Assembly: GCF_964019385.1 (NCBI RefSeq)
Contig: NC_088645.1
Location: 32,387,517-32,451,516, forward strand
Direction of reading: 5' to 3'
DNA: 64,000 nt
Origin: Sycon ciliatum
Taxonomy: Eukaryota; Porifera; Calcarea; Leucosolenida; Sycettidae
Shown here: in pieces, positions 7,876 to 52,964 of the stretch
Numbering within the stretch: position 1 is the first letter of the stretch
How the letters are laid out: the number at the start of each line of letters is the position of its first letter
Translations under genes and position numbers: made by a program
Notes under the pieces: generated by a model
Told to the model about the DNA's origin: nothing
The model's database searches: none
The model's input: only the letters and a program-made list of their open reading frames with translations

Positions 7876-10800
7876 TTAGATGAAATTTTGAAACCGGCAC
7901 AACCGGGCTATTCTCTTGTTGGAGTCAGATATTCTTTCAGCGATTATGAAGTCAGCATCAGGACGTTCCACTTCAACTTTGGTCACGTTCATCGGCCACA
8001 AGGATGTCTCGTCGATCACCGGCCGTCGCTTGAACAGGGTAAAGACCGCTTGGGGCACATCTATCCAAGCTGAATTCACCGTAACGCGCAGAACAACATC
8101 TATCCCAAGACGTCCAGCATCAACAGAGCAATTTACTCTTTCTTGATCAGCAGCAGAGTAGCATACACCGCCCAGGGCCGACTGTAGCACGTTTACACTG
8201 CAGCAGCTGCATGTTCGTTGCAGCATTTCGCGAAGCGCCGACAGAAGCTCCCAACGTAGTGCAGCCTGTACATTCACAAACAAAAGACGTGATTTTTGAA
8301 TTGAAAAATTGCCGTTGAATTCAGCAATTGTTTGTAATCAGACTATGAATGATCTAGAAAGGCAGCACCAGTGTTAAGGGTATTTAACAGCCAAAACCGG
8401 GTTGACTTGCGTCTCATGAAAGCACTGAATGAAATATTGTCTTCCTGTTCTTACTATGCTGACAGAACCCTGTGGACACCGGACCCGCGAACAGCCGTCG
8501 GCCGACACCAAGTTCAATGTGATCTTCCAGCTGGTCGCACGGAAGTGTGTCACTGGACAAGGGAAAGAGAGAACATGAGAGCAAATACTACAAGTTTGAG
8601 AACAGTAATTGAGATCTGCCACATCATGTGAATATCTATTGTAATCTTGAGTTTGGGCTGCTCCACATAACAGATAGACTACAGTGCTGGCAACTGAAAT
8701 TAGACCCCTGAGCGGTGCGTTCACATTCTAGCCGTCCTTATCTCGTAGTTTTACCATCCCGAGTTAGGTCTTTGCGATGGGAGCGCACCGCTCAAGGGTC
8801 GGATTTCAGTAGGTCTTGGCACAGTAAGGGCGCGTTCAGACTACCGTGAACCCCGTCAAACCGTGAATGCCGATAAACCGTGAAGGACATTCACACAACC
8901 GATAACAAACTAACGTTACCGTGAAGTTTTCAGNNNNNNNNNNNNNNNNNNNNNNNNNNNNNNNNNNNNNNNNNNNNNNNNNNNNNNNNNNNNNNNNNNN
9001 NNNNNNNNNNNNNNNNNNNNNNNNNNNNNNNNNNNNNNNNNNNNNNNNNNNNNNNNNNNNNNNNNNNNNNNNNNNNNNNNNNNNNNNNNNNNNNNNNNNN
9101 NNNNNNNNNNNNNNNNNNNNNNNNNNNNNNNNNTGGGTAAGTTGTACGAAATTCTGTGGGTCCATTGTTATTAGGCATTATGCCTGTTTTGATTTCCACT
9201 ATAAATAAAGTACATGTGTGCAACAACATGTTACTTACAGTAGTCATCCAATGACGTAGGCTCACTGGCCCGGCCATAGCCAAGATTGGTTAGCGCCTGC
9301 ACTGACACGGATGCCTCAGTCACAGGAGAACACTGCTGGCACTGTGATAGCAGGTTGCTGAGATCCAAGCTGTGCGCTGAATTGGGTACTGTGTGAGAGC
9401 AGACGCTGGTCGTGTGGCCCACCTTGAAAGTGATGTTGACGCGATAGCCGAGCAGGGAGACTTGGCCAGTGCGAGGACGCAGCCACGTGAGTGTGCTCAT
9501 TGGAGCTGACGTGTTAACATTCACAGACGCCATTCTGGGAACTACAATCATGGGGTGTACGTTCACGCACATACATACGCAAACACACACACACACACGC
9601 AAACACACACACAAGTACCCAGATACATAACGGCACCATTTGGGAGGATTTTCAAGAAAATAGATCTTCATGCCAACTCGTGCAATAATCAGGTGCCTAA
9701 GCAAATATGATATGTTCACATACAGTCGACTAACTTCGCTAATAACGACTGCAGATACAACGACAATTCGCGAATAACGACAGAATTACCATGCCCAGAG
9801 CAAAGTCCTATCTAACTGTAATACATATAATGCGACTTCGGGTATAAGGACATATCGCGAATAAGGACACTTTTCTGATGCCCTGCTGAGTGTCGTTATA
9901 CGCAAAGTTGACTGTATAGGTACAGAGAGGGAAAGTCCCACCTCAGTACACTATAGTAGTAAGCAAGTACTCACCTGGTTTGACGCGGACTATGAAGTGG
10001 AAAGTCGAGTTTGGTGAGGCTCTTTTGTCGCCCATTACAACACACGTGTACACGCCGTCGTTGGCAGCAGTGACGTTGTGGATGGTGAAGTGTTTGCTTG
10101 TGAATTTTCGGCACGGCAGCAGAGCGCTGTCATCTTCGTTGAACTGGTGGAATTTGCTGTATTTCCATTGGATGAAACTCATGGAACGTCTATTAGTCCG
10201 CAGTTCTGCAAAACAGTTGTACAATGTCATAATGAATACAGGATGAGCGAAAATGATTCTTACAATCGAGGGGAAAGTATTTCCGCGTACCGAAATTTTT
10301 TTACTAAGTACACAACCTACTTGTCAGAAGGGGAGAAGACAACAGAGTATACAATAAAAAAACAGCAGGGAGAGTAGGGGCTGCAAAGCAAGCCTGTAAA
10401 CATACACTGATTCCTATGCTGTGGGTCCCAGGTTGGTCGGAGCAGCCGTTCCGAGGGTACGTCCATGCCTACGGAAGTCCATTGCAGTAGTGCGGGTATA
10501 AGCCTGTTGTGCCTCCGTTCTATTTAAATATTATGGTTTCATGAGATTGGCTTTGTGAATATACCCGTTCTCAAGTGATAACAGTCATAGCCAGCGATCA
10601 TGGTGTAAACCAGTGGCATGGCAGGCAGGTAATGTGTTCACTGCTTACTGGTAAACGGGCAGCGTAGGACAAGCTTTGATCCCTCCGCCACCGTCACGTT
10701 CTGCTTTTGGCGACGCTCCTCCGGTGTTAGGTTCGGGTAGATTCTTGGCGATGGATAGCACTCGAACACTTCCTGAGGTCATGAGGGGAACACAATAGTA

Positions 10801-13800
10801 GAAGTAGCGCAAGAAAATTATTGTTATGAAGAGCTCTTCCCATTGTCTGAAAATCGATAATTCAGGGGTCGAGTGGTCAATGAGAGTCGAAAATTATACA
10901 TGTACTGGTGATCTAGGGGAAATTGTAGTAGATCCACTTTGCAAAATTGCAAATAGAAGAAACCTTTAACAAAAGCTACGAAAAGAAAAGTATGCGATGC
11001 TTAAAATGTCAAAAAGGTCTTCCCATGGTGGAAGTAAATTTTGTTCAGAATATTTTTTCTTTGCAACCTATCAGACTTATCAAAATGTCTAAATCAAAGC
11101 TGATAATAGCTGGGACATTTTTGGTGTTGTTGATGTCCATAGCAGCAGGTGTATAGCAGGACCATCATGAGAATACTTCAAAAATGAAATAACTGAAAAT
11201 AAAATACGAGTAGCTCACCTGCATTGATGCAGGGACCCGGAGACAGATACAGGTATGGTTGGTCTGGGTCTCTGGTCTACTGTCCTTGCAACGGTATACA
11301 CCGTCATGAACTGGTTTGAATTTTCCCTGGATGCGATAGCTGCAGCGCAAAAGAGTGCAGTGAGCAAATGCATTGAACATGAATGATAGCATCAACAAAA
11401 GAGACTGAGTTGAAGTCCGTGAGGCAGGATGGGATTACATGTGATATATTTGATTGATTTTTTTTTGATTGATTGATTTTTATTTCACGGATCCTCCAGA
11501 GGCAAATAGATGCCTATCGAAGGGAGTCTCCTAAGTAAGTATGGAAAATGAAAAAGTATGTTCGTAAGGGAGAAGAGGTAGAAGATACATTAGAATATAG
11601 AGTACAGAAGAAGTAAATTCAGTACTTCGGGTAGTACATTGCATGCTAATCATAATGAGAATTAGAAAAGCAGCATTGCGGACTACTATGCGATGATCAT
11701 TTCAAGTCTTATGTTGATTGGAAGAATCAGCACTTTACGGTGCACTTTACACTTTACGATGTGGGTTTGGGTTTGAAATTCTTTATTTTACACATGCATT
11801 TTTCTCATTTCTTCTCCAGGGTATGATTTATTGCATTTCAATCCATTGTGTTAACTTACCCGTAAAAGAGGCTAGGAAGTGGCAAAAAAAATTACGGAGC
11901 AAACTTCTGAATATGTACGGTTATTCCAGTTTCGCACGGTTTGCACCAACAGTTAAAGGTGTTCAGCTCCTCTACCCAGGCCGAGTTCCAGGGGATTGCT
12001 AGACGTGGCTAGTATCTTCCAAATTCCGAGGAACCACAATGATGTAACACAAGAGCCAAGGGAAATATGCAACATGCAACATTTGTTCATACATCAAAGT
12101 GATTTGCATGTAAATGTACATGTATTCATTTTACCAAATATGTTGAACTGTCAAGTTGAAACTTACCTGCTGCCCTGGGTAACATTTTCTTGGGAGCCAT
12201 TCGAAGTCAGGCTGATGTAGCTTGTAGCTGGGTCTGTGGTCGTGCAATCTATACGCATGGGAAGGCTGGAACGGCCGGCGTAGCGGCACTGCACAGTGCA
12301 TTCCGGAGTGCATGCGCCGTCCGCCCACTTTGGTGTGTAATACGTGGCTAAGAAAAACGATATACATATACATGTACATACAGAACAGAACAGAACAACA
12401 AGAACAATCAAGGTTTGTACATATAAAAAAGGTCATCAATCTCAGGACATCTAGCTGTTCTGACCTTGTTCGGATTCCTGAGCAGAGCTGAGAGTTACTG
12501 GTCGAAAGATCACAATGAAATCACAATGAAATCTTATGAAAATGAAAGCATTCTAGACCGGCTCAAGAAGAAGCTACATGAGAATTTCTTCTTCTTTTTC
12601 TGAAGTAAAAGATGTAGCAACCCTATCCGGTGGCAATTTGAGATATTTCAACGCGAACGGAGCAAGAATATATTCACCATTGCGGTGCGAAAACCTAGAC
12701 CAGTAAATGCATGTAGATTACGAAAAATTTACACCTCGCAGCCACTGCTCTAACTACTTTTTCGCAACGACTTCGGGTGCGTTTGTTTCGTACGATCTAG
12801 AACAGGATCGAACAGCTGGTGCACATGGAGCAACCTCATGCCAACCAAACGGTACTCCAGAAACAGAGCATATTTTGTGAAAAGGGTGCCAAACTAGGTG
12901 CATTCTTCAAAAATGTGTACGGGTTACCATGGTCACTTTGTACGGCACAACGGGTCCAACCCAAAATCGTATGCACGTGATCATTTGGGACCAAAATCGA
13001 TGTTCCCCCCAGGTTTGACTGTGAAAGAGTGAAACGACTCGTGAAAAGCAGAACATGTTCTGGCTGACCCAGAACACGTGCAGTTCCAACCAAACTCGCT
13101 GTTCTGGTGAATCCTGTTCTAGGTTGTATCAACCGAACGCGGCCCTAAACAGGGTCATGCATGGGTATCCATGACCCTCCTCCCACCTCCCCCCCCCCCC
13201 CCCCCCATTCAACACACACGATTTCCCTTGATGCGTGCATGGTGTCGACTGTGAAGTATATGGCGTAGGTCAGTTTACGCAAGTCCCTGCTTTCTAAATG
13301 TCACAGTAATTTGTCAATGTTTGCAAACATATCAGGACTTTACAAATAGTTAGTACATTATCTTATTGGATGTCAGCACAATACGTCGAGCACCGACGGT
13401 ATAGAATCAATGACAAACTGATTAATTAGCATCACGTGATGCACACTTGCACTTCAAAGACCTTACATAATTGTATAACTTTCAATCCAATAATGAAGCT
13501 TCTTTCCAGTGCCATTTGACATGCACGCACTTGAAAATCCCAGCCCTTTTCCAGGGAAACCTTGCATGTCACAACAGCCCTACTTCTTATTGGAACCGCT
13601 CAACGTGCGTATCAGTTCGTGTTGGCAAGGGAGCTCAAGGACCGAACATCATCCTCAAGAGGTCTTCAAAAGCCTTGAGTGATCAGCCCCTCTTGTAGAG
13701 GCTAAAGTACAGATCATCGTGCTTGCTTATGCATATTATGGGCTAAAAACACTGATCTACTCAAACGGTGCAAGTCTACCTACGACGAAACACTCCAACG

Positions 13801-14611
13801 GAGAACCATACTGATGTCATGTCTCAATACCTTCCATTGGTAATGCTTGAAAATGATAGACAATATACACTCCTGTAACACAACCCTGAACATTTGTTCT
13901 ATTAAAAACCTAGGAAATACATATTATAACTTACATGTACGTCCAATCACCAGGGGTGTAGTGTATATGAGCAAACGTACGAGGAAATAATTCGATTTCC
14001 AAAAGGCAAAAGTGCGATATCGTTGCAAAGAGACTTCCCTGTCTAACGCTTTAGTTCTCCAGAATAAATTGTGAGCTTCCAAGACAACGTTTCGTATACT
14101 TCGTTTCCCCCTTGCCGCTTCAGTGAGTCTAGGAGTTATTTCATTGTTGATACATTGCTATCACGTGATTAGAAAACTTCAACAAACCTTCGCAGAGCAC
14201 GAATTCATGTTCATGTCGCAGTCTAAACAAATTACTTTCCGCCTGACGGTCGACTGGAGAGCGTTTGAGACAATACCCAAATCTGTTACGACTCCGGCGC
14301 GCATACCCCAAACTTGCATTTACTGAAAAGGTGTGTTCAATGGATGCCACTGCACCTTACACGACGGAGTAGAAATGCTGTTGAGGCACAGCACACACCA
14401 GACTAAAACATGTACCTCAAACACGCAAACCCCATAAGTCCCCAAATCTCCTGTCATCATGCTGCATCCAACCAATCCCCTACTCAAAATCACATCAGCA
14501 CATACCGTTCTCAGCGTAGACTCTCCAGTCCGATAGTTTCGGATTCTCCGGCGTGGCCAGCGAGGCTCGTCCCAGAGTAAGTAAAACGATAAGCATGAAC
14601 ACACAGTTCAT
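7876..14611 (-). CDS. Gene A: secreted or surface Ig/FN3 protein, 8-exon model
   Basis: Exons (minus): 14611-14506, 12347-12167, 11339-11219, 10772-10649, 10205-9975, 9541-9239, 8552-8455, 8265-7876. Every junction has GT/AG and the phases agree (1,2,0,1,1,1,0), giving 517 residues. Exon 1 encodes a signal peptide (MNCVFMLIVLLTLGRASLA). Exons 2-3 form Ig-like domain 1, with an extra CTPECTVQC cluster and DGVYRC as F strand. Exons 4-5 form Ig domain 2, ending in NDGVYTCVV. Exon 6 is an FN3 domain (TLTWLRPRTG ... GYRVNITF ... NLGYGRASEP). Exons 7-8 match the membrane-proximal domain of gene B1 (CSCCS). The third Ig exon of B1 is absent. No membrane anchor is seen: the last exon runs to a stop with a basic end, so either the protein is secreted or a further 3' exon exists. 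An assembly gap lies in the intron between exons 6 and 7. The biological role is unknown. Confidence 0.75.
8680..8826. mobile_element. MITE in gene A intron
   Basis: Imperfect terminal inverted repeats (left: tacagtgctggcaactgaaa; right, in reverse complement, a close variant ending in ctactgaaatccgaccc). The same terminus family forms the palindrome at 50187-50277 inside gene C, so related MITEs invaded introns of two paralogues independently or before their duplication. Confidence 0.65.
8934..9133. other. Assembly gap (200 N)
   Basis: Exactly 200 undetermined bases inside an intron of gene A. An exon could be hidden here. The flanking exons nevertheless join in frame without one. Confidence 0.99.
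9721..9916. mobile_element. pogo-like MITE in gene A intron
   Basis: Termini TACAGTCGACT... and ...AGTTGACTGTA are imperfect inverted repeats beginning with TA. The interior repeats short ataacgac and ataaggac motifs. It lies between exons 5 and 6 of gene A. Confidence 0.6.
12770..13148. mobile_element. MITE (hAT-like termini) in gene A intron 1
   Basis: The left end (gcgtttgtttcgtacgatct, then agaacaggatc) and right end (gatt/cctgttctaggttgta, caaccgaacgcggcccta) are inverted copies with mismatches. The interior also pairs loosely, giving a foldback of about 370 bases without coding capacity. The superfamily guess rests only on the terminal motif. Confidence 0.5.
13149..14505. other. Intron 1 of gene A
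   Basis: Non-coding by the gene A model. It contains a poly-C tract at about 13188-13206 and otherwise no recognised element. Confidence 0.5.
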
Positions 14612-14619
14612 GTTCTGTG

Positions 14620-16640: not shown

Positions 16641-16644
16641 ATAA

Positions 16645-17479: not shown

Positions 17480-19185
17480 ATATTATTTGTTTTTTAAAGA
17501 CTTGAATAACACTCCTGAGGGGTTTTACTTTCAGAATCAACCTATTTTGTATTTAATAAAACTGAAAATTAAAAACGTTACAGCATCAACAATGGTGGTG
17601 TGTTTTTTGTTGTTGTTCGTGTCCACGTACAAGTACCTAAAACATTACAGGGTTGCGCCACGTCATCTTCTTCGTGCCAAGCGCTACCTGACGTGCCAGC
17701 CCGTTATATAAATACCACTGGCCATGCCTTGATCAGGGGTCATGCGTGAACTGATGGTGGCGGTGTTGCGAAGGGGAGATATGTTCCGGAGGATGACTTT
17801 CCAGCTTGGAAAGCCCGCACGGCCAGGGGTATATTAAATTTTACCAATATTTTAAACGTTAACGGAATGAGTCAAATGACTATACAGCTGCAATTATGTC
17901 ATAAATTAATATCACCCGCATGACATGGATAGAGTAGCCGACTGGTGGTTCCGCACCATTTGGCCTGTAGAATTGTGCAGGGTATGTAGAGAAACCAGCG
18001 AAATTCCGTACGAATATCATTAATTTTGATATGATGAGTTTTCAAATGCATAAGAAAAGGGGGGGGGAAAGTTGACGGATTTGACTCGACTTTGCTTGTA
18101 CGCCGAGAAGCCGGAAAGGGTGAAAAGGGTGGAAGAAGAAGGAATAATTATACCAACACGTTACTTAAATGATAGTGAGTAGTTAAAAAGGAAGAATATT
18201 TACTTCAATATGACTGTAAACAGTATGGTTCAAGCCTTCCATGGTCACTGTCGGAGAAATACTTGCATTGAATAATAGTCCATTGCATGTTTCAGATACC
18301 TCTCAAGACGAACATTATCGTGGTGTTGTCTCATCAGGCAGCACTTTCAAGGAATAAAAATAACCACGTCGGAGAAGTTTGATCTCGACTCTAAGTGTAC
18401 AAGATCAAGTGCACCAGGACGAGTTGTGCACAGCCACCATTCCTATGCATTCCATTCTATCAAGATCGCTAAGCGTGCAGTAGTACCTTTTTTCTTTCTT
18501 TTTCACCATGTTCACAAACCCAGCTCATGATTATGGCGGTAAAAACACCCCTGCCCACACACGCTCTATGGGCTTCAAAGTTCTGGAACGGAGCTCTCCT
18601 TCTCGCCACCATCACCATCAGTTCGCGCCTGGCGCCTAGTAGATTCATGTTTAGCGGTATCCGACATAGCAAGCTGGTACATCAGGTATCGCATGGCACA
18701 TAACAGTTAGAGATGACACAGCAACGACATAGCTCGATTGCGACTGTACGTTTCTTCCCCGCTGGATTCATCAGGCAATATTCTTCTTGGATGTCTTCAT
18801 ACCGAAGACATCCAAGAAGAAGATTGCCATGTGTGTCTTTACCACCATCTAATTCAACCGTAAGTACAGCTGCAGTGGTTTCTTCAACTACATACCCAGC
18901 TCGAAAAGAAAATGAACGACCATCGTACGGAGACTAGGACCAACCGTGCAAATAGTGAGCAGGAGGAGCACCGAGACGCAGCAGTGATGGTGGGGCATTG
19001 ATGGCTCTGCTGACCTTAGGTCTCGGCATCACGGCCAAGAACACGCACCAGACAAAAACAAAAGATAGACCTGTACGGGTCAGGATACCGCACCTTGGAG
19101 CTAAAGACACATACAAACAATGCGATGGAGCGCAAAGAATGTAAAGTAGCTTCAATACTATCCGACGGTCAGCACTGGCAAGTGG
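17480..19185. other. Region downstream of gene B1; no recognised gene
   Basis: Mostly AT-rich sequence with a G-run near 18060 and the palindrome listed separately. No frame has domain or splice support. Confidence 0.4.
18774..18828. repeat. Short near-perfect palindrome
   Basis: Arms of 18 bases (ttcttcttggatgtcttc) pair perfectly around a 5-base loop. Beyond one mismatch the pairing continues for six more bases (ggcaat/attgcc). It lies about 360 bases beyond the gene B1 stop codon. It could be a transcribed hairpin near the 3' end or a snap-back replication scar. Confidence 0.8.
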
Positions 19186-19190
19186 CAACA

Positions 19191-22100
19191 CTAGACACTC
19201 ATCGCCAAAATATTCAGAACAGAGACGGTAACTACTAAATAGTTAATAGCTGATAGGCTTAGCATAACGTCCGCACTACTCTTTGTAGGGGAAAGATATA
19301 GGCTAGAAACAGGTGTGTGGGTCGTGGCCGGCCCTGATGAAGTGATGTACTCTGTGGCATTGCTAGTGACCATAGTTTCTGAAGTTATCATGCTAGTGTG
19401 TTCTGCATGTGCAATATATGTCAATTGGGAACTGAACGCACACAGGCTGGTTGTGAATTGCATGCTCACACTAACAGCTGTCTCAGTCAGGGTGGTCAGG
19501 TTGCCAAGAGAGAATGCCTCCCAGTACGGACCATACACCCAGAATCCTTGGTACGAGAACTCCCAGTCATCGTTGAGGGATAAAACTGGGAATGCGCGGA
19601 GAAAACGATGTAATGGAGCGGCTAGGTTTGTGAGCTCCGTCGTCGACCTTACTGCGAATTTCACTTCCACCAGTGCCCCTCCTGCTGCAGTGCAGTTCAT
19701 TAGAGGGATTACATCGTGGGGATGGCTAAACGTCGTGCATACGTCCTCAGTGGTTTCGTCCAATTGCATAGCAAGCGGTTTCTCGAGCGAACAACATGAG
19801 CACAGCTTGCTGAAGATATCGGTGAGACGTTGATGCCAAAGTCGAGAGAATTCAGTCTGAGCCGGACAAACCCGCAAAGAACAGACAATAAGGAAACCTG
19901 TTAAATTCTTGGATTAATTAAATGAGTGTGGAGGTACAGTGATTGTAAGGTCATGCGCAAGGTGAGTTTCAAAATGTAGCACCATGAATTATTCTGCTTC
20001 TGATGTAATCCCAACAGGCTAATGGTGGGTAAAATGGCACCAAATAGATTGAATTCGGAATCGATTATATGCCAGGAAGCACGAGATGTGAACAAGTGGG
20101 CAATGTGGGGTTGGTAAGCAGTACGAGGTCTTACTTACCACCGACAAGGTGTTGGTGGCAGAACTGGAATTGCTGTTACACCCATTCTCGTTGGCCTTCA
20201 TCAACAGGAGGAATGTGTGAAGATGCGTTTTCGTCAGACCTAAACGGACACAGTACAGTCATGCAGTATAACAAAAGTCAGCGTACCTGAATATGGGCCG
20301 CCATTATCAAGGAACAGACAGTATAGAGATCACATGCTGACGTCCAAGAAAGCGGAACTAGTGCACGGCACTTTTACATTATCTGAACGATATTTCAAGC
20401 TAAGCTTTGTACCACAATACATGGAACGGGGGAGCAAATTTGATGCCTGAAGTGCATTTTTGCGAGAACAATCCGACAAAGGAGCATATTTGGCGTGCTC
20501 AATATGCAATGTACATGTGTACGCCATTGCCAATTGTTCCAGTGATGCTGCACGTTCCAGTGCAGTAGAAAGAAACCCAGTGATGTAATCCGAATTTGTT
20601 AAGGGCGTCAACTTTGCGCTTTTGCTGGACTTCACTCAGGGCAACTACACAGCAACAGGTAACTGGCTTTTGCAGAGTGCAAATCGTGAGATGCAATCGC
20701 TGGCACGTTCTCACGAAGGAGGCACACCGTTGTGTACAAAATAGATCTATTGATCGAACCCTACTTAAAGATGCAATGAAAAATTAATGAAAAATTTTCA
20801 ACGACAAATCTACGTACTTGGGTGGTAGTTCCAGTTTTCTGGCTCGCTTTTACTGCTTCGTATGCCATCACGCGTGATATACTGCAACTCAATAGCCAGA
20901 CTGACGGTAGAGTCTTGGGACGCCATGAAGCAGGCTTCTGATGGAGTCAATTCTTGTTTTGGGTCGGCTTTGCTCTCGAACCTCTCGACCAGGTGGCTCA
21001 TCGCCATGCTCATGCGACCTTGACGGAACGTGCTGATTACGATTAGTTTCGTTGTCGGCTCGTGGTCTTGCTGGATGGCCACGATTTTGTTCCCTGGCCG
21101 CGCGTGAGGCTTCCTTGGTGCATCCGGAGGAACCACTGGAGAGAAAGAAAGAAAATGAGATATAAGTTGCCTAAATGAAGAAAAACTCGATGCTTTGTTA
21201 CCAAGTTACGAAGAAATAGGTAAACGTTCCTCGTGCCAACAAGCACGGAAACAAACTCGCTTTTACCGAATAACAGCAAAACAAGTGCCATGTACATGCA
21301 CATACGGTGGTGGACTTCCGCAACATTTTGAAGATCATGCAGTAATCTCGATAGACCAGTTATCAAACAAATCTGTCGATATAATATACATTGCTTCCTA
21401 GCTTTCGGCCACTTCACTATAATCCTACATCCGTCACCACCATGCGCTCTTAGCGGAACCAATGCACGAAGCATAAGCACACCAGCGCAGCAAGTACACT
21501 TTCGTCAACACGGCTTACTTATAATATTGAAGAGCGCCTCGACGTTGGTCTCGGACATTCTGCATGAGATTGTTGTTCTCCGGGCGAAATCCAGGAGTCG
21601 TAAATCTACGATGATCACGCTTGTCCGCGCAAAGAATACTCCGATTGTGCTGGAGTTTAGCGGCGTTCCGTCCTGAGACCACTGGACAGATTGATTCAGC
21701 GCCCAAGGCATTGTGGCGTAGGGACACGTCAGCCTCCTCGTCACGAGCGATGTCTCGTTTATGACTTTGTTGATGTTTCTCTTTCGGGTGTCTGTACCAA
21801 AACAGTTTGGAAAGTAAAATAATACACACACAAAACAGCAGTAATGAACAGGGAATAAAAGCAATTTTTCAGGCAAGTCACAGCCTTTTCCTGGGCAATG
21901 CTAAAGGTGTAAATGTTACTAGGCAGGCTCACATTCTCTGATGCAACTTGAATCAAATTTATCATCCCCACCATGAAGTATGCTTGGACCAAAATATGAT
22001 AATTATATATTTAAAGGTCAGTATCTCGTGCGAACAGAGTCTGCCACGGTCGAACTTCACAAGCCATTGGCTGAACACATGAAACACCTTTTCACTTTCT

Positions 22101-39525: not shown

Positions 39526-39928
39526 TGAAAAGGCGACGAGGAGACAATAACTTTATTAATGCGATTAATAGTATAAGTGAAGCGGACATTACAAAATGAT
39601 GAATGAGAATACATGTATCTAAAATGGTTGTTCCTAATCGATTTTCTTGAGACTATCATCAGGGAAAAATCGTCTCACAATAGAGGCTATACGGAAAACA
39701 AACTACTTATAGGTTATAGGATAGTGGGGAGTATACAAGGTGAGGTGTGAAGAAAAAAAAAACTAAAGTGGGAGAGAAGACGAAAGAAATTAGAAGAAAA
39801 GATGTGAGAGTGTTCAGACGGTGTGAGCTACTACAAAAGGTGAGTGAAATGAAGGCGTGGAAGCAGGTGACTGTGATAGAGTGAGGAAGTGTGAGGTGTA
39901 GGTGTATGCGAATGTATGTGTGTGAATG
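39526..39928 (-). repeat. Penelope pseudo-LTR, 3' copy
   Basis: Non-coding terminal sequence downstream of the first ORF, repeated from 42691 and 45858. It contains an A-run of variable length (near 39755) and a CTGATGA ... GAAA segment (39631-39666) discussed as a hammerhead-like core. Confidence 0.85.
39631..39666 (-). ncRNA. Hammerhead-like core in Penelope pseudo-LTR
   Basis: The minus strand reads TTCC, CTGATGA, an unpaired segment, GAAA, a self-complementary ATCGAT, TA, GGAA. Stem I (TTCC/GGAA), both conserved boxes and a stem III candidate are present, but stem II does not pair. Hammerheads are known in Penelope-like terminal repeats, so this may be a decayed or minimal version. The same sequence recurs in the other pseudo-LTR copies (near 42800 and 45967). 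Confidence 0.35.
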
Positions 39929-42754: not shown

Positions 42755-43095
42755 TACAAAATGATGAATGAGAATACATGTATCTAAAATGGTTGTTCCT
42801 AATCGATTTTCTTGAGACTATCATCAGGGAAAAATCGTCTCACAATAGAGGCTATACGGAAAACAAACTACTTATAGGTTATAGGATAGTGGGGAGTATA
42901 CAAGGTGAGGTGTGAAGAAAAAAAAAAAACTAAAGTGGGAGAGAAGACGAAAGAAATTAGAAGAAAAGATGTGAGAGTGTTCAGACGGTGTGAGCTACTA
43001 CAAAAGGTGAGTGAAATGAAGGCGTGGAAGCAGGTGACTGTGATAGAGTGAGGAAGTGTGAGGTGTAGGTGTATGCGAATGTATGTGTGTGAATG

Positions 43096-45921
43096 CTAGG
43101 TGAAGAGTCTCAATTTTGTGACATTTTCTTTCTGAATGCATAGATTAGGATTGTGTTTACGGATGAAAACAGCTTCTAATACCTTAAGTTCACGAAACCT
43201 ACGAGCACGGCACAAAACAGTGAAGCATGAATCGTCATACACTGAGCGGCATTGGCTACTAGACAAGAGGTGTTTTTTAATTGCTGACCCTTTCGTTGTG
43301 CTCTCACCTTCAGTCCGGTCATCTTCATCTTGGTTGTCCAACTCACTCTCTTCATCACTGCTCACACCTTCTTCATCCTCTTCCTCTTCCATCCCGTCCT
43401 CTGCACCCGACGACAATCCCACGCTACTGCTCACTGCCAGTCCATGTCCGGTTGTAGATGCCATTACCAGCGCACGAGTCATGCTCCTTGTTACTGGTCT
43501 CCGTACCTGTGCTTGTCCATTTCCTACAGTCTCACGTAACTGTGCACTTGCAGTGGGTTCACCCGCTGCTGTAATAGTGTGGTTCTGTTGTGCAACTGGC
43601 ACCTGTTTGCGGGGACGGCCTCGCCCAGGTCGCTGGGCTTTGGCTGCATCTGACAAAAGGTACAATGGTACATGTAGTTTGACGCGTGCGTTCAGGTGCT
43701 GAAGGGTTCTTCCTACATATCGGCTATCACAATGCCGACATTCAAAATGATAGATTACATGGCTAATTAGTTGGGTAGGAAGAACATCCTTCTTCACCGT
43801 GAACGCACGGGCCGTAGTGAAGACAGTTGTCAATGCTGTGGCAAAATAGGTTTGTCTGACCACAGTCCTCACGGCGCGGGCCACATCCAGCGAAATTTGA
43901 CCTTTCCATGGAAGTCGTAAAAATACACGACATGGGTCAGGTCCAAACTCAGGCTCGGCAACCTGAATATCAGGTTCACTAAACAGCTTACTGAGGAGCT
44001 GAACAGGATATCCATTCCGAACGAATACCTTCTTCAGGAAACAAAGCTCTTGCTGAAGCTTATCAGGCGAGCAAATCCGCCTAGCGCGCATGATCAAATT
44101 TCGTACGAGATTAGTTTTGTATAAAGTCGAGCAATAGGAGTCGTAGACAATGTATTGCCCGGTGAACGTTGGTTTTCGATATACTGAAGTTGAAACAGCC
44201 ATCTCCGTTTTCTCGACTAACACATCGAGAAAAGACAAACGGTTTGACTGCTCATGTTCACATGTAAATTTCAGAGCGGGATGTAGGTTGTTGAGCATAC
44301 CAAGAAACTCATTCGATTGTTCCAGATTACGGAAATGCGTGAACGAATCATCTACGAATCTAACATATAAGCTTGGCCACATCGCACTTGGAATCTTCGA
44401 TTCATAAAACCCGACAAACACATTGGCCAGAACTGGACCTAATGGTGAACCCATGGCCACCCCGTCAATTTGGCGGTACATGGTGTCATCAAAAGAAAAT
44501 TCAACATCAGTTGTCATCATCTGCATTAGTCTGCGGAACGCAGTTTCGGACATCCAGGGAGAATCGAACTGTTTACTGTACTCTTTATCGTGGTACAGAG
44601 CATTAGCGCAAATGTCAATTGTCTCCATCACGGGCACATTGGTGAACAAGCTTACAACGTCGAAGGAGCACATGTGGGAAGAAGACGGTACTGGCTGCTC
44701 ACGCAGGATATCGATGAATTGGAAAGTGTCTTTTACATTGTGTTTGCAATAGTACTTAGCCACTGGTGTAATCATATCGCACAACCATTTCGAAACTGTA
44801 TATTGAGGTGAACCACACATTGAAAGTATTGGGCGAAGGGGACAATCCTTCTTATGGATTTTCGGCAATCCATAAAGTCTGGGCCGTGTTGAACCAATCG
44901 GTTTAATTCGTAAGTACTCATATTTAGATATTTCCTCTGCATTCCGCAGCTTCCGCAAGTACTTGATGATATCAGATTCTATAGCAATTGTACGGTCGTG
45001 TATCTGTACAGGGCCTAACTTAACAAACTTCGACCGATCATCAAGGATAGTAGCCATCTTCGTGTGGTATTGTTCTTTAGTGATTATAACAGTGGCTCTA
45101 CCTTTGTCCGGTCTCGTGATAATAATGTCTTTCCGTGCTCTGAGATCTCGGAGGGCTTTCAAGTGCTCTCGAGACAAAGAGAAAGATTTACGGTCTGGTT
45201 GTTGTGTGGCATGCTCTTCAGCTATCGATCTCAGCTTGGCAGCACAAAGTGACTTCTGAGTATCCGAACAAGGTCTGAATTCAGATAATTTATTGTAAAG
45301 TAGTTCAAATTCCATTAAAGTCACTTCAGGTTTCAGCGAAGTAGGAGGAACTCCGTAATCAATGCCCCTACACAAGAGATCTTTCTCTATGTTGCTAAGT
45401 TCTACATTGGCGATGTTGATGATGGTGCTATGGTCAATGGTGAAGGAGCCGAACCGTTTCTTACGAAGCCAGTCAAAATTCTTACGATATTTTGTAATCA
45501 GGCGAACTTGTTGGTTAGCGTCGTTCTGAGACAGAAGGTTCGAGAAACGCAAGAAGTCCAACGGCGAGAGAAAGGAACGAGCCAGAGCGTATAGATGTCT
45601 GAACTGGGATTTGACTTTGCTAAGAGTGTCCTTACTACGGCTAATATCGTCTTTGATAAAAACCCGTTCCAGCTTGAGTGAATGATAAGCTTTTGCCTTG
45701 TGAACGCGGTTTTGTATAGACTGAGGGCAAACACCATACTCTAAACATTGTGTGAGGAATGTAAGGTTATGTGCAATACTACGGCAAACAAAGCGCTTCC
45801 TAATAATTGCGTTCAGGCAATCAACCTGAGTAGCAGAATATCTCCTTTTGAAGTAAATGAAAAGGCGACGAGGAGACAATAACTTTATTAATGCGATTAA
45901 TAGTATAAGTGAAGCGGACAT
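43096..45921 (-). CDS. Penelope-like reverse transcriptase/GIY-YIG endonuclease, unit 2
   Basis: The tandem copy of the ORF at 39929-42754. The translated protein is identical over all 941 residues; the one base change seen within it (near 45550) is silent in this frame. All catalytic residues of the reverse transcriptase and GIY-YIG domains are kept. It starts in the pseudo-LTR of the third, partial unit (45858 onward). Confidence 0.95.
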   Translation of the reverse strand: MSASLILLIALIKLLSPRRLFIYFKRRYSATQVDCLNAIIRKRFVCRSIAHNLTFLTQCLEYGVCPQSIQNRVHKAKAYHSLKLERVFIKDDISRSKDTLSKVKSQFRHLYALARSFLSPLDFLRFSNLLSQNDANQQVRLITKYRKNFDWLRKKRFGSFTIDHSTIINIANVELSNIEKDLLCRGIDYGVPPTSLKPEVTLMEFELLYNKLSEFRPCSDTQKSLCAAKLRSIAEEHATQQPDRKSFSLSREHLKALRDLRARKDIIITRPDKGRATVIITKEQYHTKMATILDDRSKFVKLGPVQIHDRTIAIESDIIKYLRKLRNAEEISKYEYLRIKPIGSTRPRLYGLPKIHKKDCPLRPILSMCGSPQYTVSKWLCDMITPVAKYYCKHNVKDTFQFIDILREQPVPSSSHMCSFDVVSLFTNVPVMETIDICANALYHDKEYSKQFDSPWMSETAFRRLMQMMTTDVEFSFDDTMYRQIDGVAMGSPLGPVLANVFVGFYESKIPSAMWPSLYVRFVDDSFTHFRNLEQSNEFLGMLNNLHPALKFTCEHEQSNRLSFLDVLVEKTEMAVSTSVYRKPTFTGQYIVYDSYCSTLYKTNLVRNLIMRARRICSPDKLQQELCFLKKVFVRNGYPVQLLSKLFSEPDIQVAEPEFGPDPCRVFLRLPWKGQISLDVARAVRTVVRQTYFATALTTVFTTARAFTVKKDVLPTQLISHVIYHFECRHCDSRYVGRTLQHLNARVKLHVPLYLLSDAAKAQRPGRGRPRKQVPVAQQNHTITAAGEPTASAQLRETVGNGQAQVRRPVTRSMTRALVMASTTGHGLAVSSSVGLSSGAEDGMEEEEDEEGVSSDEESELDNQDEDDRTEGESTTKGSAIKKHLLSSSQCRSVYDDSCFTVLCRARRFRELKVLEAVFIRKHNPNLCIQKENVTKLRLFT

Positions 45922-46743
45922 TACAAAATGATGAATGAGAATACATGTATCTAAAATGGTTGTTCCTAATCGATTTTCTTGAGACTATCATCAGGGAAAA
46001 ATCGTCTCACAATAGAGGCTATACGGAAAACAAACTACTTATAGGTTATAGGATAGTGGGGAGTATACAAGGTGAGGTGTGAAGAAAAAAAAAAACTAAA
46101 GTGGGAGAGAAGACGAAAGAAATTAGAAGAAAAGATGTGAGAGTGTTCAGACGGTGTGAGCTACTACAAAAGGTGAGTGAAATGAAGGCGTGGAAGCAGG
46201 TGACTGTGATAGAGTGAGGAAGTGTGAGGTGTAGGTGTATGCGAATGTATGTGTGTGAATGCTAGGTGAAGAGTCTCAAGGTATTAGAAGCTGTTTTCAT
46301 CCGTAAACACAATCCTAATCTATGCATTCAGAAAGAAAATGTCACAAAATTGAGACTCTTCACCTAGCATTCACACACATACATTCGCATACACCTACAC
46401 CTCACACTTCCTCACTCTATCACAGTCACCTGCTTCCACGCCTTCATTTCACTCACCTTTTGTAGTAGCTCACACCGTCTGAACACTCTCACATCTTTTC
46501 TTCTAATTTCTTTCGTCTTCTCTCCCACTTTAGTTTTTTTTTTTTTCTTCACACCTCACCTTGTATACTCCCCACTATCCTATAACCTATAAGTAGTTTG
46601 TTTTCCGTATAGCCTCTATTGTGAGACGATTTTTCCCTGATGATAGTCTCAAGAAAATCGATTAGGAACAACCATTTTAGATACATGTATTCTCATTCAT
46701 CATTTTGTAATGTCCGCTTCACTTATACTATTAATCGCATTAA
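45888..46743. repeat. Inverted repeat closing the Penelope-like insertion
   Basis: Arms 45888-46279 and 46350-46743 are reverse complements of each other over about 390 bases, around a 70-base centre that encodes, on the plus strand, the last residues of the element ORF. The element's 5' side therefore carries an inverted copy of its own 3' end, stopping at ttaatcgcattaa. Confidence 0.9.
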
Positions 46744-46754
46744 TATTTAGAAGA
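46743..46754. repeat. Target-site duplication, right copy
   Basis: ATATTTAGAAGA, matching 39514-39525. After it the sequence resumes as the unit 1 homologue (acacctg..tattagtatcgcg). Confidence 0.9.
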
Positions 46755-49263
46755 ACACCTGACTATTAGTATCGCGAGTCTTTATCTTTGCCAGCACACG
46801 ATGAGATTCCATTTATGCCCACAAAGTTTGGAAAGGAGCAGAGACACGCCGGGGACCAGTTCAAACTTCAGAATAGCTGCATAAAAGAAAGAAAAGGAGT
46901 CAAACCTGGTTGGTACCAAACTTCTTTCTCTGGATGCAAGTAAAGTTTCACCATCACCACCATTTGCCTTGCATGCAGTCATTTTATTTCATGATGATGA
47001 GAACCCACCACCTCATCATTAGGCGGACGCCATACTAAACACATAGTAGATTCTTGACATACAATTTATCTTTTTCCGCATTCAGATATTTTCAGGATAA
47101 ACTTTCAACCCAGAATCAGTCCATTTCCGTGACAGTTTTCCTACATGTTCTTAAACTCCATGGGTCCCGCTGACAACAACCAGATACCGGTACACGCACC
47201 AGCGCTAGAACTAGAGTACCCTGTCGTTGTGCGCCATTCATTTGATTGACTGCACAGTACGTGCCCTATCATGTACTGTCGTGGACATGGAAATTCGGTC
47301 GCACGTCTAGCGGCCCAGGGAGCTGGCCATGCAGCCGTGGTCCATGGCGGTCGGGGCATTTATGCGCTGCAGCTCGCTGGTCGCATCGGATCAACATGTG
47401 CACTGCATGCAGCGTTCTGTACGCGCTGAGGGCGCCGGCCCCGGTCAATCGACTGGATTTCCATGTCCACGACAGTAGATTGAAGTACTCGTATTCCGGA
47501 TAGCTACTGTATATCATGCCTCTTCGAACTGCAATGTTGTATTTTGACAGTAACCTGTCAATATTGGCCAGTACCCAGAGAAAAAGACTGTCAAACTGGC
47601 TGATCTTTTCCCGGTAGAGCAGATGGTGGTAAGATTGCATGTCGCTTTCTGTGTGCCACAATCCGCGAGGACTGTTGCATCTCCGCTTAGTCCTTGAGCG
47701 GGGATTGTAGAAAATGTTCTCTGGTCTGGACCTTCGTAGCACACCACAAGCGACCGGGGTTGATTTTTGAGGGTCTGTGGAAATTCTTGAAAACACCGCC
47801 ATTCCGGCAACAGGCTCTCAGCTGCACCAAATAAACAACTTTGCCAATATTTCGCCCATTGGGCATCATCAGGGCATTGAGGTAGGGGAGGCAAAAATAC
47901 GAAATATAAAGACGAGTTATGCAGGCAGATGAATGTTCTAGAACTAACACATCATGGTGACACAATTGGCAAGGCCAGCAAACTTAACAATCATCACTTG
48001 TAAGGTGACCTAAACAGAACGAAAGATGAGAACTCACACATACACACAGACACAATTTGGCAAGAAGGCAAGACAACTAACACTAAAGTTTACAATCATC
48101 ACCTGTAAGGTGACCTAAACAGAAGAAAGAGGACTAGTAAGACTATCACAGCACGTACAAGAACACTTCCAAGTGTGGGAATGCTAAAGGCGATCTATGT
48201 ATATGACAGCGGTGTGTGTGCAAAGTATGTGTATGTGCTGTGTCAGGTGGTAAAGGTCTGTGGAAAATCACTGCATTTATTTTCTCAGTGACAAATGCAC
48301 AGCAAGAGCGGTCTGTTTGCGTGCAGTGCTCGAATATACACACGGATTGGTTCATTCATTCCAGCTGGTCCGTATAGTTACCCGCACATGTGTTTTGGAG
48401 AAGTTTTGAGCAAAACACGCTCACAATTGATCCGAAGTCAAGTGCACGACGAAAACGAGCTGGGAAGTGCGCCCTGATTTCCCTCATGCAGCAACACGAG
48501 CTTCAGTGCCACCCGGACAGTAAATTTGAATACAGCAGCAAAAATATAATCTAGCTACTTGTCACTAATAGTAAGGGATTTCTTATGGCATTACCAGGCA
48601 CAGTCAGGAAAATTGACTGCCCTGTTTAGCTTCAAGCTTCTCAGCAGATAAAGGATAATAGGTGGTGGATTCCTGAACTTTTTAATACGTAAAAGACAAA
48701 ACGGTCTGCTGAAAGTACACTCCGGCAAGTCTCCCTACTGCCCTCGCGGAGGCCTTCATCACTACTGCCGTACTGGAACACACCGTGCTTACGTACTCCA
48801 GATATCAACTGGCGTGCAGTGTTTTATGAGAGTCAGGCTCATCGAAAGCGACCAATAGAGAGGGTAGTATGCAATAAGTACGGATGTCACCTCTCACATC
48901 ATGTCTACTAATTACGCGTGAATGTCACGTGTGGAACATGACGTAAAAATGCTGGACTTTCAGCACATACAGGTAGATTCCTTCCTGCCTAAGAGCCATA
49001 CACAATGTATCTACCACCTCGGTAACAGGGACAGCTGTAATGAAATCTGTATCACAGTAATATAGACCTGCTCATCCTCCTCAGAATTAGAGGCTGATGG
49101 AGTCAGCCGTAGGAAGTGTGGATATTTTATTACCCCTAGTCACTGTTCAGACAGCGTGTTGTACCTTTACTTTATTTTTACATGTAAACGGAGAATGAAC
49201 ATGGTCGGCCGCAGAGCGCAATGGTGGTGGTGGTCACAGGTGGTGAAGTGGACGCTTACATGT
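46755..49263. other. Displaced 5' flank of gene B2
   Basis: Homologue of 29011-31519. It includes a 177-residue minus-strand frame (47802-47269) like that in unit 1 and the better-preserved hammerhead-like motif. It is now separated from the B2 start codon by the Penelope-like element. Confidence 0.6.
47842..47876 (-). ncRNA. Hammerhead ribozyme-like motif, unit 2
   Basis: The minus strand reads TGCC, CTGATGA, TGCCCAATGGGC, GAAA, TATT, GGCA. Stem I pairs TGCC/GGCA, stem II pairs GCCC/GGGC around AAT, both conserved boxes are intact, and ATT sits at the cleavage position. Compared with unit 1, stem II is one pair longer. This is a good match to a minimal type I hammerhead. Confidence 0.65.
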
Positions 49264-49890
49264 ACATGTACATGTATAACTAGAACAGTAAGCTTGAACG
49301 TGTATCTTAAAAGTTTTAAAAGCAACCTGCATGCTACCAACCAGTACGGTCAGAGTCATGATAAAGGAGGAATGTAGGGTTCTGGAGAAGAAGGGAGGAA
49401 AAATATATTCTCTTCTTGCTACACGAAATCAAACAAACATGTTTCATAAAGTCTATAGAACCATGAATAGCAAGGTTTGAGGTAAAATCTAAGCGCAATC
49501 TTAAGTATGCCAACTATTCAAATCTTCCAGGACCTCTTTCCTTTCAGTCAATAAGAAAAAATAACGTTCCACAGGAAACAGACTCCTGACAGAACATAAT
49601 TATAAAAGTACAATCCATGCTTGTTCACCCTGAAAACTAGAAGGGTCAACATGAATATTATGGATCAATTGAGGAATTTGGATAGGGATATTTTGTCAAT
49701 ACAATTTGCACACACTTACAGTTTGAAGAATTCATGCCTACGTTCATAGCAACCCACAAGGATAGTGTTTAGATACGGATGTTGGCCTTTACACAAGATA
49801 AAGAAGTATAATCTAAAATTAAATTATACTGTGAGCAAACAGCCATACCTCAAATTGCATTGCTTTCTACACTATACTCAAATGTCTTTT
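49264..49890. other. Unique spacer between duplication and gene C
   Basis: It begins with a TACATG array and then AT-rich sequence. It contains none of the 3' exons (membrane-proximal domain, anchor) that gene C would need. Confidence 0.5.
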
Positions 49891-49892
49891 GT

Positions 49893-52800
49893 TCAGTCAA
49901 CCTTTCGGTCTACGAACAGCATCAGAAACGAGGACATGTATGGGAGTCTGGAGCTGACTTCTGACGGCGTCAAGTCGTGCTTGGGGTCGGCTCTGCTCTG
50001 CTCGAGCCTCTCGACCAGGTGGTTCACCGCCAGGCTCATACGACCGTGACGGGATGTGCTTTGGAAGATAAGTTTGGCTTTTGGCTCGCGGTCTTGCTCG
50101 ATGTTCACGATTTTATAACCTGGCCGCGCTTCAGGCTTACTTGGTGCTTCCGGAAGAACGGCTGGAGAAAAAAAGAAACACAATTCCATGTACAGTGCTG
50201 ACAACTGAAATCCGACCCCCTTGCCGGGGCGCCGCGCCGCCAAGGGGGTCGGATTTCAGTTGTCAGCACTGTACATGTAGATGTGAATGAGCTAAATGAT
50301 GAAAATAGTTGATGTTTTGCTGCCAGGTTACGCAAAGAAATATGGTGAAACCTTGAGCGGCCTCACGATCACTGAGCTAACATTGCCTGTACTGAATAAC
50401 AGCAGAACAAAGGTAACATACAAATGAGGCGGTAGCCTTCGGGCGACATTGTAAATACCAGTAATCTCGATTGGCCAGTAACCAAACGAATCTGCAAACT
50501 ATAAAATATTGCGACTGAGCTTTCCCCCATATACTAGTACCCATTTACTATTATCCTCCACACGTCGCCACCATGCGCTCTTAGCGGAACCAATGCACGA
50601 AGCACAAGCACACCAGCATAGCAAAGACACTTTCGTGAACGCGTCTCATTTATGATATTGAAGAACCCCTGGACGTTGGTCTCTGATGGTCTGCATAAGA
50701 TTGTTGTTCTCTTGGCGAAATCCAGGAGTCATAAATCCACGATGAGCACACTCCTTCGCGAAATCAATACTCCGATTGTGCTGCAGTTTAGCCGCGATCC
50801 CTTCTGATACCACCGTGCTACTGTACGGATTGACTCTGTGCCAAAGAATCTCGTGCAAACAGAGTCTTCCACTGTCACATGTCAACATCATGGCTGACAA
50901 CGTGAAACACCTTTTGAGTTTCCCGCCTTATACATCTCTAATTAGCTAAGAGTCCAGGAGCACTGCACCTTTGCGCAGCTGGCATTTTCGGATGTCAGGC
51001 CCATGTCAGGCCATTGCCATACCTTGCTGTATTGTGACGAAGTAATCAACTCTGTCATAGTATTCTCGTTTATGCTTCTCCAGCAGCTCACACCTGTACT
51101 GGCCGGCCATGGTTCTCGTCACGTTCCGCAGAACGTAGGTGTTGCTCCACGGGTTAGCGTTTGGGATAAGTGTGCCATTGGAGAGCCATCGACGAAAGTG
51201 TGTAGCACCGCCTTTCAGTGCAATGGGTAGCAAGAATACGACACGGGAAAGAAGCAAAGAAGGATTTTCATGCACCTCCAGTAAAGAACAAAGAAATATT
51301 TACATGTACCTCCAGGATGCTATTTTGATCTCCAGTGGCTTTGATTTACGTGAACATCCAATAATCAAATTTTATTCACTGGTTTTGAGGGAAAATACAA
51401 TAATTTACAGAATTTTCAATCTAGAAAACAAACATAAGAAAGGAATAAAAATATAATGTACACGGGAGAAACACTAGAGATTCAAGCGAACTCAGCTGGA
51501 GCTGTACCTTTTGAAAAGCAATCCAGCACTAGGCTGGGCTGACCTTCGATGCCTCTCACATTGCGCGGCCCCGGCGGATAGATCTTCGGCCGTGTCGCCG
51601 CCAGACATTGTTGGTGTTCCTGCGGTTGTGCACGTACATTGTATTGCATGAATTTGTTAACCTCATGCTTTTCATTATTGTCATGAAAACCATGAGGTAC
51701 TTGAGCAGTATTAAATTTCGTGAGCTCGAACACTCATTTACCATAACAAGAGAGATCTAAAATCATGAACTCGTTTTGTTAGGTTCGTTCGATATTATCC
51801 GGTACAGACAAATTGTAGCCACCCCGTAACCGAAACAACCACTACAACCGTCTTGGGTCTTACCTCTTCCTGTATCACACTGCAATTGCATAGTTGGGTG
51901 ACATTTTCTTTTTGGTTTGTCGTAAAGCCTCAGACCGTCAGAAATCAAGCCATTAAGGGATGCGGTGGGATACTCCCAATTCAATTCGGCTAAAAGCCGC
52001 GAAGCCTCTTAGAACGAAATCATATGGGTATATTACTCGTCTGTTGCCTAGGCTCACCTGTTGTTGCGCTGTAACTACTAGGCACTCGCATTTTGTCCAG
52101 ACCTTGGTTCGAAGTTCATCCACCCCCTGACAGCGATACTCGCCGCTGTGGTAAATTGCTTGCACGTCCAGTATCTCCAGTCTGAAAGATGCAACCAAAG
52201 AGACGCACGATTCGGAAACTACCTTTGTTAATAGTGCAAGCTGCATGGAATCCGAGAATAGGGTTATTCCATTCGAAGTGAGCTAAGTCCAGACTGCACG
52301 GTCTGATGATGTTGGTTGGTCATTGTTCCCGTTCTATACTGCAATTAATATCACCTAATTAAATACAGTACGAAAGTTTGGTAGCGGACTCCGCGATAAA
52401 TAAGGAAGTTGTTTCTCCTGCACTGGATCCAGCGCTAGAGTGGCATAAAACAACTTCTTTGCATGATAATACTGCATAAAATTGTAAGTGAATAAGAAAA
52501 CAACTTACACCTGCAAGTCACCGTCGTGCCTGACTTTCCTCCTGATTGTCATGCTGGATGCTGTTAGTGCTGAGGTGTTGGCGATGGACTGGCCGTCCTT
52601 GGAGAAGGTAGCAAATCTAGCCCAGCCGCACCTCATGTGCCATGACGTGCCTGACGCTTTACAGGTCTTGGCACATTGGTTGTCGCATTGGGGCAGAATA
52701 ACTGCATTCACAGGGTCACATACATGTAGACAATAAGAATGGTGGGTTCACTTAATCGAAAGAAACACACATCGACAAATATACATGTAAATTGGAGGAG

Positions 52801-52964
52801 CTTCGGCGACCTCCAATTGGAGTTCTAAGAGCCTCCTTGTAGCATCCAGGACCACAGACGACCAAAACTAAAGATGCTCTCAACCACTTACATGATCTTG
52901 AATGGTTGGAAATAGGAAACGCTGCAGAGATGCATATCAAAGCCAGTAGGATTACAATGCACAT
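49893..52964 (-). CDS. Gene C: older paralogue of gene B, decayed
   Basis: Exons (minus): 52964-52892 (signal peptide MCIVILLALICISAAFPIS), 52701-52509, 52181-52058, 51619-51508, 51211-51023, and an FN3-like exon from 50161. Exons 2-5 are 193, 124, 112 and 189 bases, exactly as in gene B1, and encode the same two Ig-like domains (CDNQCAKTC, HSGEYRC, LVLDC, AGQYRCELL). The third Ig exon survives only as a fragment (about 50640-50840): its 5' half and acceptor are deleted and it carries an in-frame TGA where B1 has CGA. Because that exon is symmetric (phase 1-1), skipping it keeps the frame into the FN3 exon. The FN3 exon diverges from B1 after LTPSE and no 3' exons follow, so the product would end near 49893 without an anchor. 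It is either a soluble variant or a pseudogene. Confidence 0.6.
50187..50277. mobile_element. Palindromic MITE in gene C intron
   Basis: Perfect 37-base inverted arms (50187-50223 and 50241-50277; outer part tacagtgctgacaactgaaa) around a 17-base GC-rich centre. Terminus related to the MITE at 8680-8826. Confidence 0.85.

Follow-up and report, generated by a model that had tools for sequence, protein, structure and literature searches.

Do the head-to-tail Ig/FN3 genes on contig NC_088645.1 of the calcareous sponge Sycon ciliatum form an allorecognition or immune-receptor locus, or a tandemly expanded family of another kind? A first-pass annotation of a 64,000-nucleotide stretch of this contig (positions 32,387,517 to 32,451,516; referred to here as the window) had described four genes (A, B1, B2, and C) as a possible receptor locus resembling Hydractinia Alr. 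We rebuilt the gene models, followed the cluster past the window, and compared the paralogues with each other and with known recognition systems.

Gene models and exon architecture

Models were built for A, B1, and C (Table 1), and all genes of the cluster lie on the minus strand. The interval delimited at first pass, 7876 to 52964, runs exactly from the stop codon of A to the ATG of C. The claim that the four genes share exon order and phases on one strand was borne out: A, B1, and C have a common exon order and an identical phase chain (signal peptide [SP], 0-1; Ig1a, 1-2; Ig1b, 2-0; Ig2a, 0-1; Ig2b, 1-1; optional Ig3, 1-1; FN3, 1-1; CSCCS first exon, 1-0; last exon, 0-stop), and the exons of B2 lie within a 99.825% identical copy of B1. 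Exon lengths of 193, 124, 112, and 189 bases, reported for B1, B2, and C, are exact in B1 and C, with those of B2 again inside the B1 copy; the corresponding exons of A measure 181, 121, 124, and 231 bases, with the same phases.

Table 1. Positions of genes, repeats, and inserted elements in the window
Feature	Position	Strand	Details
Gene A	7876..14611	-	517 aa; SP 14611-14506; Ig1 12347-12167 + 11339-11219; Ig2 10772-10649 + 10205-9975; FN3 9541-9239; CSCCS domain 8552-8455 + 8265-7876; no anchor at end
Gene B1	19191..29000	-	687 aa; SP 29000-28913; Ig1 24538-24346 + 23987-23864; Ig2 23431-23320 + 22422-22234; Ig3 21791-21519; FN3-like 21135-20818; CSCCS domain 20239-20139 + 19856 onward; Ser/Thr stalk, then hydrophobic C-terminal tail to 19191
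Gene B2	31523..39515	-	Exon starts: SP 39515; Ig1 35062 + 34511; Ig2 33955 + 32946; Ig3 32315; FN3 31659, cut at 31523
Gene C	49893..52964	-	319 aa; SP 52964-52892; Ig1 52701-52509 + 52181-52058; Ig2 51619-51508 + 51211-51023; truncated FN3 50161-49893
Ig3-exon relic in C	50650..50813	-	Second part alone, with stop, without splice donor; likewise in C2 and C3
Duplication unit 1	20999..31519		B1 5' part and upstream region; self-BLAST
Duplication unit 2	31523..49263		B2, with inserted element; self-BLAST
Penelope-like retroelement	39525..46745	-	7.2 kb; two tandem copies and inverted end piece; in unit 2
Larger repeated block	18145..60437		Recurs 61 kb downstream with B3 and C2, without B2 and the element

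All 20 introns of the A, B1, and C models have GT-AG ends; because exon ends were chosen with GT-AG in view, this count alone is not independent support. The identical phase chain is independent support for the predicted models. So is the similarity between B1 and C, which is centered on exons: BLASTN yielded six blocks, one per homologous exon (Ig1a, Ig1b, Ig2a, Ig2b, Ig3 relic, and FN3), of which four ended about 20 bases or less from the exon ends and two extended 200 to 350 bases into an intron. The signal exons of B1 and C gave no DNA alignment by BLASTN. At the protein level, C and B1 share 74% identity across the 232 residues aligned from SP to Ig2. A run of 200 N (window positions 8934 to 9133) lies inside A, within the intron between FN3 and CSCCS, and is probably a scaffold join, on which the model of A thus rests.

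Domain composition and protein ends

A and B1 encode a signal peptide, a CxxxCxxxC cluster with Ig1, Ig2, FN3, and an unclassified CSCCS domain, and C ends within FN3. B1 has an additional phase 1-1 Ig3 exon, which is also present in B2 and is broken in C. In the profile search suggested for B1 at first pass, Pfam Ig_3 exceeded its cut-off of 30 bits in Ig2 (7e-9; 36.5 bits), which establishes an immunoglobulin-superfamily (IgSF) fold by profile. Matches to A and C fell just below the cut-off (Ig_3, 29.1 bits each; in A, Ig_3 at 1.5e-6 and V-set at 1.3e-5). The fn3 profile matched the FN3 of A scanned as a lone domain (25.9 bits; cut-off, 25), identifying an FN3-containing protein; in the whole protein, the score was 21.1, below the cut-off. 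In Pfam, the B1 FN3 exon and B1 Ig1 had no match of their own, and A Ig1 had just sub-threshold matches to unrelated domains; the B1 FN3 exon and the Ig1 domains were assigned by position, phase, and homology.

In B1, one skippable exon encodes Ig3, whose Ig_2 match (E, 0.075) stayed below threshold. The tblastn match to its relic in C contains one TGA, and the C-group copies align with B1 Ig3 starting at its position 110 (83.5%), after which they read atgagacgc instead of gt. The CxxxCxxxC cluster, singled out in the first-pass annotation, does occupy the same position in A, B1, and C; it recurred in 68, 33, and 25, respectively, of 2000 shuffles of each. The CSCCS domain is common to A and B1 (21% identity). 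Neither of the two domains matched a Pfam family at E up to 10 or any PDB sequence, and a structure model of the second exon alone, built from two sequences, had a helix-strand-helix order and a pLDDT of 43.7, too poor to use. By eye, the domain is SEA-like, a resemblance suggested by reading only, for which profile searches and the poor model gave no confirmation.

On the basis of models and hydropathy, the 3' ends were as first described, with a GPI-type tail in B1, an unanchored end in A, and truncation in B2 and C. B1 has 11 N-glycosylation sequons and a stalk (residues 576 to 660) with a Ser/Thr fraction of 0.39. Its final 19 residues have a mean hydropathy of 1.91, the maximum of the protein, and nothing follows the hydrophobic end, as in GPI signals; the signal was judged by eye and hydropathy. 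B4, a copy beyond the window described below, also terminates at the hydrophobic tail. Past the signal peptide, A and C contain no 19-residue stretch above a hydropathy of 1.2 and no GPI-like end, and no model includes a cytoplasmic tail.

The nearest PDB matches to B1 residues 1 to 585 were sidekick-2 and contactin-2 (E, 0.004 to 0.14), followed by protocadherin-15 (0.67 to 1.5), all weak; those to A Ig2 were the IgLONs OBCAM and neurotrimin (E, 6.7e-5 to 3e-4), likewise weak. These closest proteins of known structure are adhesion molecules of the IgSF, and we counted them, weak scores included, in favor of an adhesion or recognition role. Contactins and sidekicks have extracellular Ig and then FN3 domains, as here, and contactins and IgLONs are GPI anchored. 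Contactins have six Ig and four FN3 domains, whereas the cluster proteins have two or three Ig domains and one FN3 domain plus the CxxxCxxxC and CSCCS regions, and their genes form a tandem array.

Origin of B2 and the inserted retroelement

B2 lies in the second unit of a 10.5-kb tandem duplication with a breakpoint within the FN3 exon and so has neither CSCCS domain nor tail. Positions 20999 to 29010 and 31523 to 39525 are 99.825% identical over 8012 bp (5 mismatches and one 9-base gap), and positions 28999 to 31519 and 46743 to 49263 are 99.4% identical; as a 99.8% tandem copy of B1, B2 is of recent origin. We also considered whether C or B2 might use shared 3' exons via long-range splicing: the B2 junction has a chance gtaag, the stop of C lies inside FN3, and the cut FN3 of B2 soon reaches a stop as well (reading ...RMSMAMATCKRPLHHL-stop).

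The element inserted in unit 2 carries two open reading frames (ORFs) encoding identical 962-aa products (39929 to 42817 and 43096 to 45984), and its end piece (45886 to 46745) matches its own reverse complement at 95%. We take it to be Penelope-like from its RT and GIY-YIG motifs; in Pfam, GIY-YIG alone was matched, weakly (E, 0.1). The 12-bp target duplication overlaps the B2 start codon. B2 retains its ATG and 10 bases upstream, so that the element lies 10 bp upstream of the ATG.

Other repeats were observed in the window. A retrotransposon gag fragment lies on the plus strand at 3400 to 3834 (Retrotrans_gag, 35.9 bits), and the gag domain alone passed the cut-off in a Pfam scan of nine hand-chosen window ORFs and part of the retroelement ORF. 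Palindromes with related ends, resembling a small fold-back element by eye, occur in introns of C and A (50190 to 50272 and 8678 to 8812), and an imperfect inverted repeat (self-match, 77.9%) lies at 58774 to 59267.

Extent of the cluster and genomic context

The cluster runs past the window, with four more copies (B3, C2, B4, and C3) within 104 kb, giving at least eight copies (A, B1, B2, C, B3, C2, B4, and C3) in 160 kb. All nine exons of B3 are identical to those of B1, and all six exons of C2 are identical to those of C; in B4, the signal exon was set at 79 bases instead of 88 after its donor was seen. The larger repeated block matches its downstream counterpart over 13375 bp at 99.98% and over at least 13698 bp at 99.85%, the second match reaching the end of the DNA compared. 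Matches under 150 to 200 bp were excluded from the block comparison, and the exon comparison used the top three matches per exon. Through SP-Ig1-Ig2, the C, C2, and C3 copies retain open frames and splice sites. There are about five distinct sequences (A, B1, B4, C, and C3), not dozens. The Ig3 exon of B1 and B2, the recent origin of B2, the 200-N gap in A, and the four further copies are additions to the first-pass annotation.

In a search of the sponge's own genome with B1 (53 candidates scored), all 51 listed matches at E up to 0.01 fell inside the cluster, between 32.4067 and 32.5553 Mb of contig C3. A search with A (E up to 0.5) recovered its own 8 exons and one match at E 0.32.

Among four other families with genome matches, three occur in tandem arrays, namely, Ig_3 (contigs C10, C2, C9, C7, and C14), peptidase C1 (C8 and C9), and homeodomains (C1 and C14), and zf-C4 does not. 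A recent tandem array alone is therefore not a mark of an immune locus. Dense Ig_3 arrays with equal or similar scores lie at C10:29275654-29443989 and C2:29238630-29289882, many of the matches on C10 being about 1.76 kb apart. Nuclear-receptor DNA-binding-domain (zf-C4) matches numbered 5 in 538 Mb; sponges and placozoans have few nuclear receptors, and a count this low suits either of them better than a cnidarian or bilaterian. Homeodomain matches numbered 117, which exceeds the usual sponge number; many are weak, and many lie in one region of C14. This region (C14:15963557-18592294) has dozens of weaker matches, many in open frames of 500 to 630 aa, an unusual expansion, and nine homeodomain matches stand in tandem at C1:64401823-64600837, several of them with the same score. 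Peptidase C1 had 58 genome matches; among the 12 genes inspected, all had CGSCW and none had a silicatein-type site. Two peptidase genes on the small contig C178 are 94.5 and 97.6% identical to those at C10:8838146-8894944, and this contig is possibly a retained second haplotype. COX1 was not found in the assembly.

The near-identical copies B1, B2, and B3 could be polymorphic or assembly errors. If the extra copies were largely an assembly effect, B1 and B3 (perhaps also B2) would be alleles or misjoined haplotypes, and the true locus would comprise A, B, C, and an older B4/C3 pair. The B1-B3 block (99.98% and 99.85%) and the B1-B2 copy (99.825%) are as nearly identical as this would require, the assembly may retain haplotigs (C178 versus C10), and a 200-N join already lies inside A. 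However, the 40 kb after the window, where the second block starts, contains no N, and B2 joins two nonhomologous points, which simple allele mixing would not produce. Moreover, if C178 is a haplotig, alleles differ by 2 to 5% here, far above the difference between B1 and B3. We regard this explanation, which is compatible with the other readings of the locus, as unlikely.

Sequence evolution among the paralogues

We calculated dN/dS between paralogues after removing gap codons and codons with differing exon labels; P values are nominal and uncorrected, numbers are small in recent pairs, and the neutral nonsynonymous share is 0.768. For B1-B4, dN/dS was 0.36 overall, 0.25 in Ig1, and 0.29 in Ig2, with 22 of 40 changes nonsynonymous (P, 0.0019), including 8 of 17 in Ig1 (P, 0.008); from Ig2 to the tail, 8 of 13 were nonsynonymous (P, 0.16), too few changes to show constraint. 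For B1-C, the ratios were 0.21 in Ig1, 0.32 in Ig2, and 0.59 in FN3 (nonsynonymous changes, 24.5 of 51 in Ig1 and 22.5 of 41 in Ig2; P, 0.001 or less), and for B4-C3, the ratio was 0.22 in Ig1. Zero synonymous changes, and thus no ratio, were obtained for the B1-B4 FN3 and CSCCS first exon and for the C-C3 SP. The changes between paralogues in Ig1 and Ig2 (dN/dS, 0.21 to 0.32) point to purifying selection, and diversifying selection in Ig1 was rejected between paralogues (0.21 to 0.25).

B1 and B4 are 98.4 to 99.6% identical from 17711 to 23221, 92.7% identical in the next 500-bp bin, and 83 to 85% identical over the Ig1 region, with lower values beyond. We rejected the larger divergence over Ig1 as a sign of selection because the introns share the same step, at about window position 23.5 kb, and the Ig1 exons (94.7% and 96.8%) are better conserved than the bins of 83 to 85% that include the adjoining introns. 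We read the pair as a mosaic in which the 3' half appears to have been homogenized and the SP-Ig1 half not.

The C group bears on the reading that the array is mostly pseudogenes, with A and full-length B functional and C and B2 decaying. The dead Ig3 exon and a truncated, seemingly unconstrained FN3 are common to C, C2, and C3; in C-C3, 8 of 10 changes in the FN3 remnant were nonsynonymous (dN/dS, 1.21), the sole ratio above 1. The retroelement just upstream of the B2 ATG fits as well. On the other hand, SP-Ig1-Ig2 remains open with intact splice sites in all three copies, and the 2 of 5 nonsynonymous changes in this part of C-C3 (P, 0.08) are too few to decide. Such decay is a distinct possibility, if somewhat short of an even chance, and is compatible with the explanation that we prefer below.

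Comparison with known recognition systems

Sponge aggregation factors are Calx-beta/Wreath proteins. A Pfam search of A, B1, and C (E up to 1) gave no match to these domains, and the cluster does not belong with the aggregation factors by this measure. They are discussed as sponge recognition proteins in PMC5450542, and the grafts described there showed no enrichment for them. No relatives of the cluster genes were confirmed in viral contigs.

The Hydractinia allorecognition complex is described as a group of linked IgSF genes, some intact and some defective (PMC11067881), and ITIM- or hemITAM-type motifs are reported for Hydractinia candidates (PMC11067881, PMC12065747). Like Alr, the present locus is a genomic cluster of IgSF paralogues. 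The Alr proteins, compared here by description, differ in that Alr1 and Alr2 are single-pass transmembrane proteins with highly polymorphic ectodomains (PMC11067881), whereas the proteins here are GPI type or secreted and are conserved between paralogues. None of the models has an Alr-type transmembrane segment with a cytoplasmic tail (in B1 and B4, nothing follows the hydrophobic tail, and A and C have no such stretch) or an ITIM/ITAM motif, the models having no intracellular part. Because the cluster feature was found but the membrane and signaling features were not, we did not file the locus as an Alr-type member. On allelic polymorphism, the paralogue ratios below 1 in Ig1 and Ig2, which come from the genome of one individual, bear only indirectly. 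In Botryllus, one locus, fuhc, is described as coding for secreted and membrane proteins (PMC3691228); the likeness, secreted and putative membrane members at one locus, is again by description.

In an allorecognition or immune-receptor locus with a role like that of Alr or fuhc, a polymorphic Ig1 would bind like with like, turnover and conversion would make new types, and secreted forms would act as decoys or ligands. A tandem array of IgSF genes that includes full-length, truncated, and secreted forms would suit such a role, as would the very recent duplications and the sharp mosaic boundary between a divergent SP-Ig1 half and a near-identical anchor half; the step may leave different Ig1 domains on one stalk, which this reading would welcome. 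The Hydractinia genome, too, has 44 Alr-like models that are not predicted at the cell surface (PMC11067881). Nevertheless, the low Ig1 ratios in all three pairs and the Ig2 ratios of 0.29 to 0.32, the greater divergence of the introns beside Ig1 than of its exons, the lack of a cytoplasmic tail for ITIM/ITAM motifs, and the small number of distinct sequences all speak against it, and we consider it quite unlikely.

Interpretation

The predicted genes establish a shared exon and phase anatomy, a group B with a hydrophobic tail, an unanchored A, 3'-truncated B2 and C, a tandem duplication, and a B1/B4 mosaic. The cluster probably encodes a lineage-restricted family of IgSF adhesion or recognition proteins, some secreted and some GPI anchored, whose tandem genes multiplied through unequal exchange and gene conversion. 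One or the other of these processes would have produced the mosaic. The B proteins may be held on the cell surface by a glycosylated Ser/Thr stalk and a putative GPI anchor, with N-terminal Ig domains that would bind a putative partner, either another family member or a matrix or cell ligand. A, together with C and B2 if they are expressed, would be soluble and could either bridge the partner of B or compete for it. Purifying selection in Ig1 and Ig2 fits a constant ligand and hence adhesion or general recognition, not individual-specific recognition.

Of the initial reading, a head-to-tail, fast-changing cluster of IgSF surface genes is supported, in an animal that may well be early branching. 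The step from there to an allorecognition or receptor locus was not supported, given the purifying selection in Ig1 and Ig2, the lack of a cytoplasmic tail, and the other tandem families in the genome. As judged from sequence, the cluster is real, and the way it evolves resembles ordinary conservation more than an arms race in immunity or tissue matching. Very unlikely, in our view, is a sponge-type self/non-self locus in which GPI-anchored IgSF proteins act with secreted partners and truncated decoys and conversion keeps the anchor half uniform and the Ig1 halves apart; if true, it would mean allorecognition without transmembrane signaling receptors, independent of Alr, fuhc, and aggregation factors.

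For the preferred reading, an adhesion or recognition family, the locus documents ways in which such a family can change: tandem duplications of 10 kb and larger, 3' truncation, insertion of a retroelement at a start codon, and copies that are near-identical in their 3' halves but divergent in their 5' halves. Its sequence evolution is a caution before such clusters are named immune loci. Little is known about recognition genes in early-branching animals, and this compact group of IgSF genes for surface and secreted proteins, for which the exon models are exact, offers a candidate that can be tested.
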